This document shows positions 19,308 through 44,989 of a stretch of DNA of 64,000 bases, piece after piece. The notes beneath the pieces were generated by a model that saw only the letters and a program-made list of their open reading frames with translations, did not search any database and was not told the DNA's origin. Both the position numbers and the translations under genes were made by a program. Every line of letters starts with the position of its first letter. Position 1 is the first letter of the stretch. The stretch comes from Tetramitus jugosus. Taxonomy: Eukaryota > Heterolobosea > Eutetramitea > Acrasida > Vahlkampfiidae. The stretch spans positions 372,001-436,000 of the forward strand of contig OW569375.1 in assembly GCA_937625935.1 (NCBI GenBank), in the 5' to 3' direction.

Positions 19308-20765
19308 TTAGAACAAAACAGCCTTCAGTTGTGCTTGCCATGACTTGTACTTGGTGAGAGTATAGTCACCAACTTCAGACAGAGTGGCCAGAGCCTTCTC
19401 CAAATCTTGAATCGTGTGAGCGGCGCTGACACAGAAACGGACACGAGATTCAATAATCTCCGTGGCAGGACTACCCACGACAACAATGGCCAATCCTCTC
19501 TTGAGTGATTCACGAGAGAAACCAGGCATCTTGGCAGGATTGTACAACATGATAATCATGACAGGTGAATCCTCATCACCAACCACCTCAAATCCAATCT
19601 TTCTCAATCCTTCTCTGAAAAAGTTGGCATTCTCCTTCAATCTTGCCAACTTTTGCTTTCCAATATCCGTTCCGTCTTCTCCCGTGATAACCTTGAATGC
19701 AGACAATGCTTGTTGAGCGCATGGAATAGGCATCGTAGACGAATAGATGGATCCGAACGAAGTATCCTTCAAATAAGCAATCAACTGCTTCGAGGATGCA
19801 ATATAGCCTCCGACAGAGCCAAAACTCTTGGTAAATGTACCCATGAGAATATCGACATCATTTGGATCGACACAACAATGTTCGCACACTCCTCTACCAG
19901 TCTTTCCGATCGCACCAATCGAATGAGCCTCATCCACATACAGGTAACACTTGTACTTTTTCTTGATGCGCACCACTTCTTCCAAATGAACAATCTCGCC
20001 CTCCATGGAATAAATTCCCTCTACAATAATGATAATCTTTTTCCATGGTCGATGGGTTCTTGGCTGACCCTCAATAATCGAACTTCTCACCACACTCTCC
20101 AAACTCTTCATATTATTGTGCTTAAAAACACTGACTTTGGCCCCACTGCTTCTTGCTCCACTGACAATTGAAGCATGATTCAATTCGTCACTAATAATCA
20201 AGCATCCCTTGCCTGCCAATGCAGGAATCACTGTAGAATTGGTTGCATAACCCATACCAAACACCATAGAGTCCTCCTTGCCTACAAATCGAGCGACATA
20301 CTGCTCCAATTCATAATGAACAGAAGTGTAACCGTACTCTGTGCTTGGTGAACAAGCATTGACACCAAACTGATCCAATTTTTGAAAAACGTCTTCCGTC
20401 ACGTGTTTTGGATTCTCTGCAAAGCCCAAGTAGTTGTAACTGGCAAGATTGAAGCAATTAATGCTATTTTCAGTGAGTTCCAGAGTCTTGTTATAATCCT
20501 TGGATGTTCTCTCAATGACATCAATGTAGGCACCAGGTGATGACCGAATAGGTCGATTCCAACAGTCTTGAATACGAGTGTACATTCTTCTCTGATAAAA
20601 ATCTTCAAAGAGTTTAATGAGTGGGGCGTAGCCTGGTGGTGTGACCTTGTCTGGTTCAGAGACGAACCTTCGATAGAAATCACGCAAGTGACCAAATATC
20701 ATCAACAGTGCATAGTTGAGATAGGTTGTGACAATGGTTAATGTGGAGACATCACAGTTGGTCAT
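19308..20765 (-). CDS. SPTLC2: Serine palmitoyltransferase subunit 2 (LCB2/SPTLC2)
   Basis: 485 residues from the ATG at 20765. The frame stays open 87 codons upstream, but that part looks like leader and has a poor fit to the family. The N-terminal membrane segment and LRDFYRR block match LCB2, as do WNRPIRSSPGAYIDVIER and the NLASYNYLGFAEN strand. The pyridoxal-phosphate lysine lies in GTFTKSFGSVGG, the LCB2 hallmark; LCB1 lacks it. YVDEAHSIGAIGKTGRG supplies the cofactor aspartate and histidine. The enzyme condenses serine with palmitoyl-CoA to 3-ketosphinganine in the ER, the first step of sphingolipid synthesis, as a heterodimer with LCB1. It converges with INTS8 (44 bases between stops). 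Confidence 0.95.
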   Translation of the reverse strand: MTNCDVSTLTIVTTYLNYALLMIFGHLRDFYRRFVSEPDKVTPPGYAPLIKLFEDFYQRRMYTRIQDCWNRPIRSSPGAYIDVIERTSKDYNKTLELTENSINCFNLASYNYLGFAENPKHVTEDVFQKLDQFGVNACSPSTEYGYTSVHYELEQYVARFVGKEDSMVFGMGYATNSTVIPALAGKGCLIISDELNHASIVSGARSSGAKVSVFKHNNMKSLESVVRSSIIEGQPRTHRPWKKIIIIVEGIYSMEGEIVHLEEVVRIKKKYKCYLYVDEAHSIGAIGKTGRGVCEHCCVDPNDVDILMGTFTKSFGSVGGYIASSKQLIAYLKDTSFGSIYSSTMPIPCAQQALSAFKVITGEDGTDIGKQKLARLKENANFFREGLRKIGFEVVGDEDSPVMIIMLYNPAKMPGFSRESLKRGLAIVVVGSPATEIIESRVRFCVSAAHTIQDLEKALATLSEVGDYTLTKYKSWQAQLKAVLF

Positions 20766-21094
20766 TTTGTTTGTTGTTGTTGTTGTTTTATGTGTGTATG
20801 TGTGCTGATTGAGTTGTTGCTTTGCTTTCTTTGTATCAGAGTGGACCACGCTTTGAGAGCTTTTTGTCTCTGGGAGATATTTTGCTTGGCGGCAAAAATA
20901 AAAAATGCTCCGAAGTAAGCGTTGGAGCAAGTAGCTGTTGGCGGTATGAGGGAAAAAGGGCTTTTGGGGTAGTGGAGCGAGACTTGCGCGGGAAGCCGGA
21001 CAGCACAAGCAAATGATGATCCGCACAGCTGTTGTGTTTGGTTGACTGGCCGAGTGAGATCCTAAGCGTTATCGTAAAGTGCTGGCGTTGTTGT
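20766..21094. other. Region between LCB2 start and SDR stop
   Basis: 329 bases. It contains the long open leader in frame with LCB2, poly-T/G tracts (GTTGTTGTTGTT) next to the start, and a TTTGCCGC site (minus strand, 20889-20896). No separate gene is seen. Confidence 0.4.
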
Positions 21095-22276
21095 TTATAA
21101 AAATTCATTGATCATGTCCATTGCGACTCTCCACAACTTTTCTTGTTGTTCAACGTCGTAGGACACTGGATTACTCAGGGCAGGCATGCAATAGGAAAAG
21201 TACTTGCCTGAAACTTCCTGCACCTCTGGACTCAGTGCCAAATACAGAGTATTGACAGCGCCTTGAGATGGTGTCAGAGAATAACTCTTCACTAACAAAT
21301 CTTGAAGGAAGGTGGCCCAACGTGCCAAATTCGTATTGATATTCGTTGAGATAATACCAGGGTGCAAAACATTGACTGTCACATTGTTGCTCATCTTCTT
21401 CTCCTTCAAATATCGATGCATCTTGTATGTGGACATGATCTGACAGACTTTGGATTGCGTGTAGCCAATGCATGGATCATACTCATGCATAGTCTTTGGA
21501 GATATATTCTTCCAATTGATCACGCCAGTCCAGTGAGCTGCAGAAGACACATTCAAAATACGTGAAGGTCCATTCTTGTGCAACACATCCAACAACAAGT
21601 GAGTCAACAAGAAATGAGCCAAAAAGTTGCTTCCAAACTGTGTCTCATAACCTTGCTTGGTTACTTCAAATGGAGGTATCATGACACCAGCATTGTTAAT
21701 CAACAGATTGACCCTGTATTGAGACCGAATGACCTCTGTAGCAAACGTCTTGACCGAGTTCAAATCACCTAGATCACACTGCATCACAACCAACTTTCCA
21801 ATCATGGAATGCAAAAGTGGTGAACAGGAAGCTTTGGCCTGAAATTCCTCTTCAAGCTTTTTCTTGGCTTCATTTGCTCTCTGCAAGGATCGACATGCCA
21901 TAATGACATGATAACCATTGAGTGCCAAAACTTTGACCGTTTCATATCCGATTCCAGAGTTGGCACCCGTTACGATCGCATACCTTTGCTCTTCTGCCTC
22001 ACCATCACTCTTGTCTTTTTTCGAGTTTTGTTGTTGTTGATGAAACTCGACCAATGTTTCATCTAGAATGAGCTCTAGGCTCTTGTGTGACTTGTCTAGT
22101 TTGAGTCCATGTGGAGGCGTATGAGATGACATCCATAGCTTTCTCTTCAATGTTCCAATTGGATCGAGATCACATATGAGAAGATAGAGACCAAATGTGG
22201 AAAATTTGAGGAATGAGATGAATGCAAATAATCTTGCAATCAAGGATAATTCTTCGACAACTTGTTGATTGGACAT
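21095..22276 (-). CDS. Short-chain dehydrogenase/reductase, retinol dehydrogenase-like, membrane-anchored
   Basis: 393 residues from the ATG at 22276, chosen because the 47 upstream codons are leader-like. A hydrophobic segment at residues about 12-35 (LIARLFAFISFLKFSTFGLYLL) suggests an N-terminal membrane anchor. The SDR landmarks follow: TGANSGIGYETVK (NAD(P) binding), CDLGD, LINNAGVMIPP, NVSSAAHW, and the catalytic YTQSK (Tyr-x3-Lys). The LNVSS and HPG blocks resemble the RDH11-14/WWOX branch. These enzymes interconvert alcohols and ketones on lipophilic substrates, probably at the ER. Substrate is unknown. The gene is divergent from the small membrane protein at 22510. Confidence 0.92.
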   Translation of the reverse strand: MSNQQVVEELSLIARLFAFISFLKFSTFGLYLLICDLDPIGTLKRKLWMSSHTPPHGLKLDKSHKSLELILDETLVEFHQQQQNSKKDKSDGEAEEQRYAIVTGANSGIGYETVKVLALNGYHVIMACRSLQRANEAKKKLEEEFQAKASCSPLLHSMIGKLVVMQCDLGDLNSVKTFATEVIRSQYRVNLLINNAGVMIPPFEVTKQGYETQFGSNFLAHFLLTHLLLDVLHKNGPSRILNVSSAAHWTGVINWKNISPKTMHEYDPCIGYTQSKVCQIMSTYKMHRYLKEKKMSNNVTVNVLHPGIISTNINTNLARWATFLQDLLVKSYSLTPSQGAVNTLYLALSPEVQEVSGKYFSYCMPALSNPVSYDVEQQEKLWRVAMDMINEFL

Positions 22277-22322
22277 GATGTCGTATTGTTTGTTGTTTGG
22301 TGTTTGTGTTGGGTGTGAAAAA

Positions 22323-22334
22323 GGCGCCAAAAAA
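22323..22334 (-). promoter_or_regulatory. E2F-like site (TTTTTTGGCGCC on minus strand)
   Basis: A TTTGGCGC match about 50 bases upstream of the SDR start, in the divergent promoter shared with the 22510 gene. Weak on its own. Confidence 0.25.
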
Positions 22335-22509
22335 GTGGTGCGGAAAATTTTCTTTCTATTTTGATGGTTGAGGATCTTCTCTCCTTTGAACTTCGGATCT
22401 CTTGATGGGCCAATCAAAATTCAAGAGAAGTTCAAAGGAGAGATGCCAAGGCTCTGATCGGACACTCACCATCTCCAACTGAACAAATAAAATCAATACA
22501 ACTCGTAAC

Positions 22510-24792: not shown

Positions 24793-27667
24793 ATGCACAT
24801 CAGTGTTCTGCGAGCGATATTAGTACCAAAAAAACAAACGATCGACCAAGGAAAGAAGAAGAACTTGTTGTTGGTTGATGAAAAAATCGCGATTCCACGC
24901 TCACAAGCTCAAACAGCAATGACAGAAACACTAGGCGCTCCTCCACCCTTATCCTTGGAGGCACCTACGACACCCTCTGTGGATTATGACGACGAAGAAA
25001 TTCAATCAGAGAGTGAAGACATGCAAGAACCCATACTACAGAGACACCGTAACAGCACTCGAGCACAAGAACAGCCACAACAGAGACGGAAGAAGAACAA
25101 TCTGAGAATGAAGAGACGAAAGAGAGGATGGTACTCTTCAGTTGTAGAAGAAAGCTCATCGGATGAGGAGGACAACGAAATGGATGAAGACTATGAGAGA
25201 GCTACGGGATTTATAGACACTGGGTATGTGGTATCTGTTTGAGAGCTTTCATTTTGATTCGTCAGTACCTTGCTAACGAATCGTATCATTTTGCGCATCT
25301 CTATTATTATGTATGTGAATTATTTTACAACACAGATTTCGATATTTTTTGGCGGGTTGTATCGCTGTAATCCTCCTGGTGATTGTGATCTATGCAGTTG
25401 TAGTGTTCCTATGGAATAGTGTGCCCAATTCCTACATTGGAAACCCATTCTTATTGTTTGTGGAGGCATCATCCGATGCTCTCATTGCCTTTGCTTATTT
25501 TATCATTCCCTTCTTGCTCATATTTCTGGTGAGGAATCGGAAGGATTTGCCCTTCAATTGGATCTTTTTAATGTTTGGTGGCTTTATATTGTCCTGTGGT
25601 ATGACTCATTTTGTAAATACATTTGGGCCTTGGGTTCATCCACAGACACGGATCGTCATTCATGAGCGAAGCCTTTGGTTCACTGTTCTGTCGGCCTGTG
25701 TCAAAACCTTTACGGCCATTATCTCATTGATTACAGCGGTCGCATCATTTGGTTTGATGCCACTGGCTCTCAAGCTCCCCAGTCCAACTCGGTTACAAAA
25801 GGAGGTTGATACTCGGAAACAGGCAGAGCACGACCTTCAGAACCAGTATGAACGATCTCTGTTGATCTCGAGTATCACCAACAAGATTCGTAACTCGTTT
25901 CACACGCAAGACATTTTCCAAATTGCAGCGACGCAAATTGGTAGTGTAATGAGAGCTTCTCGATGCACCATTCATCGTTACAAGAGGAGTGCGTCAATGG
26001 AGAGAGCTCAGATTCCGTGCGAAGCAGAATACCTTCATCCAAACTTTCCCAGCAAGAGTTTCTTGGATGTTGATTTACCGATTACAGGGTTCATGACACA
26101 AGTGCTAGCCAATGATGATGTTCTTGTCGTACGAGTGAGCGAACTGCTCCGCTCTGATGATGATGAAGATCGGTTGGTTGGTACGATTCTATCTCGTTAT
26201 GAGGTCAGATCCATCATGTGCGTTCGGACATCATATCAAGGCTCTCCTAATGGCATAGTCATGCTCCACCAATGCCAGGGCAATCGAACCAAGTGGACAA
26301 CAGAGGATATGCGATTCCTGAAGGATCTAGCCGCTCAATTGGGAATTGCTCTCCAGCAGACATATCTATTGGAGAGGGAAAGGCAGAGATATGAACTAGA
26401 GATACAGAATGTGAAGCTGGAGAAGGCCAAAGAGACAGCAGAAAGAGAGAATAGGGCGAAAAGCGAATTTTTGTTAATGATGAGTCATGAAGTGAGAACT
26501 CCTTGCAATGCAATTATCGGTATGAACACTCTTTTACAAAAGTCTGAGTTGAACAATGAGCAATTTGAGATTACGCGTATTATCGAAGACAGTGGCAACC
26601 TACTTGTAGAAATTATTAATTCTTTCCTCGATTTCAGCAAGCTCGAGTCTGGCAAGCTGGAACTCCAAATGCAGCCCTTCCATCTTAGTCATGCACTAAA
26701 AGGTTGCATTGACATGTTTGTGATGAATGCTAAGAAGGAGAGGAATATTACAGTTCAGTTGAACCCAAACCACGATACACCCAAATATATCATTGGAGAC
26801 AAGTTTCGATTTCAGCAAATCTTAATCAACCTGATCAGCAACGGAGTTAAGTTTACCGAGTCTGGAGGAGAAGTGACAGTCAATACCGAGGTGGTGAGCC
26901 AAGAATCAGATCAGATTATTATTCAATTTTCGGTGACAGACACTGGCATTGGAATACCAGAAAACCAAATTCAGTATCTTTTCCAACCATTCAGTCAAGT
27001 TCACTCATCTGGTATGACTCGGAGATGCGGTGGTAGTGGTTTGGGCCTAAGTATCTGTAAGAAGTTGTGTGAGCTCATGAGCGGGCGCATTTGGGTGACA
27101 ACAAAGTCAGGAAAGGGTAGTACCTTTTATTTCATTCTTCCCTTTGGGGTGTGTGCCCCTTCTCCAGACTCTAATGATCCATCCGAGGACGGTGAGATCA
27201 CGGGTGTATCAAATTCTGAAACAGAGACCAATGAACCCACATTAGGAATAGAACCAAATTTCGACGCGAAAATATTAATTGCCGAAGACAATATCATCAA
27301 CAAAAAGGTGGTCGTATCTCTGTTGAATAAGGTTGGGTATCGACGAGTCGATGTGGTCAGTGATGGAAAGATGGCTGTCGAGGCGGTGCAACGAGAAAAT
27401 ATTGACAAGAAAGGAACTCAAGAGTATGAGCCTTATTCTTGCATCTTGATGGACTTGATGATGCCAGAGTTAGATGGAATAGAAGCTACAAAGATCATTC
27501 GAGGAATGCTGGCAGATTCCAACGAAAAGCATTTGAACATCATTGCTCTCACTGCAAACATTCAAACTGATATTCAATGTCAATGCAAAGAAGCAGGCTT
27601 TGACGAATTCTTGTCTAAGCCATTCAAGTTGGATCAATTGGAAGCAGTAATGAAAATATACAATTAA
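24793..27667 (+). CDS. Hybrid histidine kinase with ETR1-type ethylene-binding membrane domain, GAF, HisKA, HATPase and receiver
   Basis: Exons 24793-25223 and 25336-27667 (112-nt GTATGT...CAG intron, phase 2) give 920 residues; the ATG at 24919 is an alternative start (878 residues). Residues 1-143 are polar and acidic/basic. Residues about 148-300 carry transmembrane helices. Numbered from the first ATG, they contain Asp191, Tyr198, Ile201, Pro202, Cys231 and His235. These have exactly the spacing of ETR1 Asp25, Tyr32, Ile35, Pro36, Cys65 and His69, the residues that bind copper and ethylene. A GAF domain (about 320-480) follows. Then come HisKA with phospho-acceptor His528 (MSHEVRTP), HATPase boxes (NLISNGVKFT, DTGIGIP, GGSGLGLS), and a receiver with Asp850 (LMDLMMP), ALTAN and SKPF. 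All catalytic residues are intact. Predicted role: membrane sensor feeding a phosphorelay. Confidence 0.92.
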
Positions 27668-43899: not shown

Positions 43900-44074
43900 G
43901 TGAAAGCTTTTTATGTTTGTTCTCTCTGCAAATACGCGGGTATTTTCTCCGGTTGCATCGGTGTATTTCCGGCAGCTAAAAATTCTGATTGGTTGGAGGT
44001 GAATTTGAGTTGTTTTGAGAGAAGATGTGCCAGCTGGGAATTGAAAACCAACAACACAAAAAGATCATAACACC

Positions 44075-44989
44075 ATGGAGTCTTCTTTCTTGAAAGGAAG
44101 AGATTTGGATCAGAATCTCATCCCTGTTATTTCACTTGAAAACTATGAGCAAAACTATGAGAGAATAGCTCAGGAGATCAAGAGAGCATGTGAGACCATT
44201 GGTTTCTTCTATTTGAGTAACCATGGGTTAGAGGAACAAGCACGTGAAGTGTTTCGATACTCGCAGCAAATGTTCACCGGTCTGACACAGAGCCAGAAGG
44301 ATCAATTCAAGATTACGAGTCACAGTGGAAATCGTGGCTATTGTTTGAATGCTGCCGAGGAGTTGCAAAAGGGTGTTGTCGATAACAAGGAAGCTTTCAA
44401 TGTTGGCAAGCCAGAAACGGATGATAATCAATCGTGTTGGCCAAGCGATTTAGATTTGCCAGAGCAGATTGCAGATTTTAGGCCAAAGATGCAATCCTTT
44501 TATGACTCGTGTCATGAATTTGTAACGAACAGATTGTTGAATTGTTTGGCAATTGGTCTGGGTTGGGAGGAGAACTTTTTTCAATTGAATCATACCGAGA
44601 AGCCTCATACGTTCCGATTGTTGCACTATCCACCTGCGAGAGAAGCGTCTGGAGAATTGAGTATTGCTGCAGGAGAGCACTCGGACTATGGTACGATCAC
44701 TCTATTGTTCCAGGATCAAACTGGTGGCTTGCAGGTCCGTGATTTGAATAACGATTGGGTCAATGTGACACCAATTGAAGGAACCATCGTGGTCAATATT
44801 GCAGACCTGTTGCAGAAATGGACCGATGGTAAATATGTGAGCACAAAGCACAGAGTCATTCAAAAGAAGAGTAGCTCTGATCGATACTCTATGGCCTACT
44901 TTGTCCACCCAAATCCAAAAACGCCAGTCAAGGAGACTACAGCCATCGAGTACTTACTGATGCGTCTCAACGACACGCACAAGTATTGA
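44075..44989 (+). CDS. 2-oxoglutarate/Fe(II)-dependent dioxygenase, isopenicillin N synthase-like
   Basis: Single exon, 304 residues. The N-terminal DIOX_N region (IPVISLENYEQN, ACETIGFFYLSNHGL) is followed by the double-stranded beta helix with iron ligands His202 and Asp204 (GEHSDYGTITLLFQD) and His259 (STKHRVIQ). The 2-oxoglutarate-binding Arg-x-Ser is present as Arg270-Tyr-Ser272 (DRYSMAYF). All ligands are intact. The family in plants, fungi and bacteria hydroxylates, desaturates or closes rings on small molecules. The layout LLHYPP and GGLQVRDLNNDWVNVTP is typical of flavonol- or GA-oxidase relatives and bacterial homologues. Substrate is unknown. Confidence 0.93.
   Translation: MESSFLKGRDLDQNLIPVISLENYEQNYERIAQEIKRACETIGFFYLSNHGLEEQAREVFRYSQQMFTGLTQSQKDQFKITSHSGNRGYCLNAAEELQKGVVDNKEAFNVGKPETDDNQSCWPSDLDLPEQIADFRPKMQSFYDSCHEFVTNRLLNCLAIGLGWEENFFQLNHTEKPHTFRLLHYPPAREASGELSIAAGEHSDYGTITLLFQDQTGGLQVRDLNNDWVNVTPIEGTIVVNIADLLQKWTDGKYVSTKHRVIQKKSSSDRYSMAYFVHPNPKTPVKETTAIEYLLMRLNDTHKY

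Follow-up and report, generated by a model that had tools for sequence, protein, structure and literature searches.

The window, by which we mean the whole 64,000-nucleotide stretch of DNA analysed here, carries a predicted two-exon gene on its plus strand (24919-27667), which encodes an 878-aa protein from the ATG at 24919 once the intron is spliced out (Table 1). The predicted protein consists, in order, of an N-terminal tail, one additional transmembrane (TM) helix, an ethylene-binding domain (EBD), a GAF domain, HisKA, HATPase_c and a receiver. Its five Pfam domains (ETR1_N, GAF, HisKA, HATPase_c and receiver) all score above their cut-offs. Exon 2 has no in-frame Met codon ahead of the second TM helix of the EBD, and an upstream exon is therefore required. 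Starting instead at a second in-frame ATG, at 24793, would lengthen the protein by 42 residues and reproduce the numbering of the first-pass annotation, whose residue numbers are 42 higher than those based on 24919. Either ATG is a candidate start, and residue numbers here count from the one at 24919. The interval singled out by that annotation, 25336..26200, contains the start of exon 2, the whole EBD and part of the GAF domain, but the gene extends beyond it.

The closest relative of the predicted protein, P0001, is encoded on a 27-kb metagenome contig and has the same five domains, with 69% identity in the sensor region and 64% over the aligned exon-2 protein. The splice is known by prediction, and the P0001 record starts just before the first TM helix of the EBD and is hence uninformative on the join, which leaves some room for a non-functional or mis-joined gene, that is, a relic sensor or an exon 1 foreign to the gene. 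We consider this improbable, as the exon 2 frame runs through 782 codons with no stop inside, the catalytic motifs are complete and P0001 retains the domain set at this distance.

Table 1. Parts of the predicted gene and protein, with positions in the window
Feature	Position	Strand	Evidence
Exon 1: hydrophilic N-terminal tail, residues 1-101	24919..25223	+	joined and translated
Predicted intron, 112 bases, GTATGT...ACAG	25224..25335	+	read from sequence
Exon 2 through stop: remaining hybrid histidine kinase	25336..27667	+	
Additional N-terminal TM helix, about residues 105-126	25343..25408	+	hydropathy peak 3.25; helix also in model
EBD, three TM helices, residues 141-249	25451..25777	+	PF25487, 88 bits; same position in genome search; helices also in model
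Asp149, Tyr156, Ile159, Pro160 (ETR1 Asp25, Tyr32, Ile35, Pro36)	25475..25510	+	alignment
Ile186, Cys189, His193 (ETR1 Ile62, Cys65, His69; Cys and His: copper)	25586..25609	+	alignment
Lys225 (ETR1 Lys91)	25703..25705	+	alignment
GAF, residues 292-441	25904..26353	+	PF01590, 50.1 bits against a cut-off of 22.4
HisKA, residues 476-541, phospho-acceptor His486 (SHEVRTP)	26456..26653	+	PF00512, 60.7 bits; also located by genome search
HATPase_c, residues 589-705, N, G1, F and G2 boxes	26795..27145	+	PF02518, 101.6 bits
Receiver, residues 748-873, Asp808	27272..27649	+	PF00072, 71.2 bits; also located by genome search

The ethylene-binding domain and its conserved residues

The first-pass annotation had proposed a profile check of the EBD region against the ethylene-receptor family. 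The ETR1_N profile (PF25487) matches the predicted protein with 88.2 bits (E 4.6e-25), against a cut-off of 27 bits. Across the host assembly (26.3 Mb; 26,348,746 bases on 56 contigs), this EBD is the sole match to the profile at E<=1. In a control search of 14 genomes, three had matches at E<=1 and none of the 14 had one above the cut-off. The EBD match is not due to chance.

All seven ethylene-binding residues of ETR1 are present in the predicted protein, and so is the lysine. Six of them, Asp149, Tyr156, Ile159, Pro160, Cys189 and His193 (codons within 25475-25609), stand at offsets 0, 7, 10, 11, 40 and 44, exactly as first read from the DNA. The ETR1 letters in this residue alignment are provisional, and the independent test is the Pfam profile match. 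ETR1 needs the seven residues for ethylene binding, with Cys65 coordinating the copper, and modelling suggests that Asp25 positions His69 and contacts Lys91 (PMC11819568). AzoEtr1, a bacterial protein whose EBD has the identical seven residues, binds ethylene in yeast (PMC11819568).

The same positions are conserved among relatives. In 39 related proteins, the Asp, Tyr, Cys and His and the residue equivalent to Ile62 are invariant (39/39), the Ile35 equivalent is kept in 38 and the Pro36 equivalent in 26. The sole exception at Ile35 is a Thr in P0001, which keeps six of the seven binding residues. Among the best 80 of 251 confirmed bacterial loci, all seven residues are present in 77 and the lysine in all 80. 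The lysine is also invariant both in the alignment with P0001 and in the alignment with seven bacterial EBDs.

Hydropathy and the structural model agree that three TM helices bear the binding residues. The model, predicted from exon 2 on a 29-row alignment, is of moderate quality (mean pLDDT 71.7, pTM 0.44). It places long EBD helices at residues 139-169, 176-202 and 215-248, with a short helix in the TM2-TM3 loop. The pLDDT of the EBD ranges from 54 to 89 per 10-residue block, with its minimum at the TM2-TM3 loop. A search of the PDB by sequence and by profile found no solved EBD structure. A fold search with the exon-2 model gave 877 matches, of which the best 50 belong to kinases and phytochromes.

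Comparison with known receptors shows both shared and distinct features. ETR1 has a disulfide pair ahead of TM1. Unlike plant receptors, the amoeba protein has no Cys between the additional helix and TM1 (Cys110 sits inside the additional helix), a longer TM2-TM3 loop and a long hydrophilic N-terminal tail. Relative to the seven bacterial EBDs aligned, which are without this extension, the loop has 13 extra residues, and that of P0001 has 12. In common with the plant receptors ETR1 (subfamily I) and ETR2, EIN4 and ERS2 (subfamily II), the amoeba protein has the seven residues, the lysine and the order EBD, GAF, kinase and receiver. It is 27% identical to ETR1 over 507 columns (188 bits), as measured against an incomplete, provisional ETR1 sequence. 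The additional N-terminal helix has a counterpart in plant subfamily II, whose members have four TM regions (PMC9603746). Bacterial EBD kinases are represented by SynEtr1 of Synechocystis and AzoEtr1 of Azospirillum. The homologues compared here, from Coleofasciculus, Nostoc and others, have EBDs 34-52% identical to that of the amoeba protein, depending on the method, and mostly share its binding residues. The remaining likenesses are by description. The Agaricus proteins AbETR1 and AbETR2 are hybrid kinases with an EBD, their EBDs bind ethylene in yeast and that of AbETR1 has five TM regions (PMC9603746). Aligned homologues from early diverging fungi retain the crucial residues (PMC5285503). 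The free-living amoebae Acanthamoeba and Balamuthia (Amoebozoa) also have ETR homologues (PMC7700396).

Host lineage and origin of the protein

The gene shares its contig with those for serine palmitoyltransferase subunit 2 (SPT2), INTS8, RRP40 and AP5B1. The SPT2 of the window is 100% identical to a metagenome protein. Among the 120 matches listed, those with an organism name that are most identical come from Acrasis kona (67%), Willaertia magna (67%) and Naegleria (62-66%), and the top-scoring one is a 958-aa plant protein with 56% identity. In a midpoint-rooted tree of 30 rows (29 of those 120 matches plus the window protein), SPT2 groups with Acrasis, Willaertia and Naegleria (100/99) and lies inside none of these genera. 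Because SPT2 falls in this group, the host is, on the basis of this one gene, a heterolobosean (Discoba) and not an amoebozoan, and thus belongs to a different supergroup from Acanthamoeba and Balamuthia. The SPT2 gene (19308-21068, minus strand) adjoins a short-chain dehydrogenase gene (21095-22420, minus strand). This dehydrogenase could be a 3-ketosphinganine reductase, in which case two consecutive sphingolipid steps would be adjacent in a eukaryote.

The domains of the receptor gene point in different directions. In the GAF search, every readable organism name among the 120 of 136 matches listed is cyanobacterial, a result that might suggest bacterial contamination of the assembly. The predicted intron and the eukaryotic neighbour genes on the same contig make contamination unlikely; SPT2 is heterolobosean, and bacterial EBDs are only 34-52% identical, depending on the method. 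We therefore give this explanation next to no credence. Judged by its matches, the GAF domain is cyanobacteria-like, and a search of the other kinases of the host genome returned no comparable GAF (best E 0.095). The kinase core, likewise, scores higher with cyanobacterial proteins (best 227 bits) than with other host-genome kinases (best 162), in a comparison that is not neutral because the cyanobacterial proteins were collected by GAF similarity. The receiver evidence runs opposite to that of the GAF and kinase core: after P0001, the host kinase L005 scores best (93 bits), against 89 bits for the top bacterial match.

The EBD itself is up to 45% identical to bacterial EBDs in the protein search (best-named Coleofasciculus) and 48% in the genome-collection search. 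By title, 63 of the best 80 of 251 EBD loci are cyanobacterial. These best matches do not establish a cyanobacterial origin of the EBD: in a 120-row EBD tree, the window protein and P0001 pair up apart from the bacterial rows, at the end of a long branch (0.82), and by path the pair is nearest an acidobacterial row, in a tree built from few columns with a midpoint root. In AU tests on 40 rows, made up of the window protein, P0001, 21 of the 63 cyanobacterial loci and the 17 remaining loci, neither constraint is rejected: the cyanobacteria and the pair as one clade (p 0.37), or the cyanobacteria alone as one clade (p 0.47). No frame among 82 bacterial EBD frames, some of them possibly truncated where the retrieved flanks end, has this GAF at >50 bits. 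From the GAF, kinase-core and bacterial-frame comparisons, it looks likely that the EBD was fused to a cyanobacteria-type GAF-kinase. Such a fusion could have arisen in a bacterial genome or in the amoeba's own lineage, or it could have arrived via a different eukaryote. In viral contigs, a single-sequence query with the window EBD, which would find close relatives only, gave eight pattern matches, none of them related.

A broader and less likely scenario is that a deep-branching, plastid-free eukaryote of the Heterolobosea gained an ethylene receptor of its own by this fusion and so arrived, perhaps independently, at the same EBD-GAF-kinase-receiver layout as plant ETR1. Ethylene could then serve the amoeba as a signal of nearby cyanobacteria, algae or plants and guide, for instance, feeding or encystment.

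ETR homologues have been published for plants, algae, fungi, Acanthamoeba, Balamuthia, Capsaspora and SAR groups (PMC6944256, PMC7700396), and ethylene binding has been shown for the Agaricus EBDs (PMC9603746) and Azospirillum AzoEtr1 (PMC11819568). An ethylene-sensing amoeba is thus less notable than the first-pass annotation had claimed, because putative receptors have already been published for free-living amoebae (PMC6944256, PMC7700396) and two fungal EBDs bind ethylene (PMC9603746). What the comparisons above add is that the ETR1-type sensor family is extended to another organism group, Heterolobosea, here by a free-living amoeba from deep in the eukaryote tree. In the open-access literature searched, "ethylene receptor" never occurs with "Heterolobosea", occurs with "Naegleria" in one paper, on sweet potato, and occurs with "Excavata" in one paper, where Excavata is an item in a list of taxa. 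Kabbara 2019, the principal survey of histidine kinases in eukaryotes and the source behind the published statement on Acanthamoeba and Balamuthia, lies outside this scope, and we claim no priority. The main text of the Acrasis genome paper does not contain the word "ethylene" (PMC11589745). Naegleria, Acrasis and Willaertia are not named among the 39 EBD matches; Acanthamoeba and Balamuthia are not named there either, so this search cannot show absence. If the protein binds ethylene, sensing of this gas hormone would reach Discoba, a group absent from the distributions given in the accessible parts of the published accounts (plants, algae, fungi, Amoebozoa, Capsaspora, SAR groups and bacteria).

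Signalling and the probable ligand

The first-pass annotation described a hybrid histidine kinase with an ETR1-type EBD, intact kinase boxes and an intact receiver Asp. We recovered the EBD, HisKA, HATPase_c and receiver by profile, and the acceptor His486, the N, G1, F and G2 boxes (recognised by their motifs) and Asp808, its Asp850, are all present. The annotation had set this intact kinase against ETR1. ETR1 belongs to subfamily I. The contrast fails, since plant subfamily I receptors retain a conserved kinase domain, as the amoeba protein does, and it is subfamily II that has diverged (PMC9603746).

The sequence features tested are those of the ETR1 sensor family. In our judgement, the protein is probably an ETR1-type hybrid histidine kinase of the membrane, one that binds Cu(I) as well as ethylene and signals into a phosphorelay. 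The loop charges agree weakly with a cytosolic kinase on a protein that would be located in a membrane. By homology, Cu(I) would be held by Cys189 and His193 of the second EBD helix, with Asp149 and Lys225 assisting in positioning them. Ethylene would sit on the copper in a pocket with Tyr156, Ile159, Pro160 and Ile186. Its binding would alter the signal, in one sense or the other, that passes through the GAF linker to a putative kinase dimer, which would phosphorylate His486 and pass the phosphate to Asp808. From Asp808 the phosphate could move to an HPt protein and on to a response regulator of the amoeba.

Components for such a phosphorelay are at hand in the host genome, where we found at least 30 HisKA matches with this gene counted and at least 40 receiver matches, some of them fragments of a single domain (both at E<=1e-3), as well as at least three HPt matches (E<=0.1); for large families, these domain counts are lower bounds. 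The top HPt match, L033 (1474-2361, minus strand), lies on a 295-aa frame. By eye, its HPt is preceded by a receiver-like stretch, and this protein is a possible relay partner. At E<=1 the EIN3 profile finds nothing in the host genome, and in the control it also matched in no genome. CHASE, the cytokinin-receptor sensor domain, has four matches above the cut-off (G000 C43, C45, C36 and C16).

The EBD fold could instead keep its copper but sense another small ligand, copper itself or redox state, with ethylene not the natural signal. The long branch of the window protein and P0001, their lengthened TM2-TM3 loop and the Thr at Ile35 in P0001 would all fit such a change, as would the finding of no clear ethylene-forming enzyme in the two compared of four 2OG-oxygenase matches. 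However, the window protein retains all seven ethylene-binding residues, and own synthesis is not needed where ethylene comes from other microbes or from the action of light on dissolved organics in the habitat (PMC7700396). We regard another ligand as unlikely, and the ethylene-receptor reading is further supported by P0001, which has the same five domains at 64% identity. Counting against that reading are the long branch, the loop and the Thr in P0001, together with the missing Cys ahead of TM1 and the moderate quality of the exon-2 model. As its genome of 26 Mb holds one EBD match, this organism would, if culturable, be a simple system for studying what ethylene means to a phagotroph. In addition, the diverged EBD, with its longer TM2-TM3 loop and no Cys right before TM1, offers a probe of what the copper site needs.

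Candidates for ethylene synthesis

An aminotransferase-fold gene near the receptor gene was considered as an ACC synthase, but it is the SPT2 gene described above (619.6 bits to LCB2a). The 2OG-oxygenase profile PF03171 has four matches in the host genome, two of which, the window one and L036, were compared with the PDB. The one in the window (44045-44989, plus strand), which lies some 16 kb away from the receptor gene, is a 2-oxoglutarate/Fe(II) oxygenase of the superfamily of ACC oxidase and ethylene-forming enzyme (EFE). As an EFE candidate it was rejected, with 150.7 bits to thymine dioxygenase against 58.5 to the Pseudomonas EFE and 137.9 to 9OVH. Since its nearest solved relative is thymine dioxygenase, this oxygenase is probably unrelated to ethylene.

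A second 2OG oxygenase, L036 (697-1926, G000 C41), gives 353 bits with 9OVH and 303 bits with 6JYV (PaIPNS); against enzymes named ethylene-forming, it scores 102 bits with 9EIR and 81 bits with the Pseudomonas enzyme. The EFE-named entry 9OVH derives from a paper on ancestral reconstruction and is apparently the reconstructed ancestor Anc357 of the ethylene-forming-enzyme lineage (PMC12329707). According to the same paper, the plant enzyme Din11 forms a little ethylene, and for this reason L036 may form ethylene in traces. Finally, the 593-aa frame of L038 (883-2664, G000 C12), another of the four matches, apparently joins a 2OG oxygenase to F-box-like and Rho-type GTPase-like parts, the last two recognised by eye.
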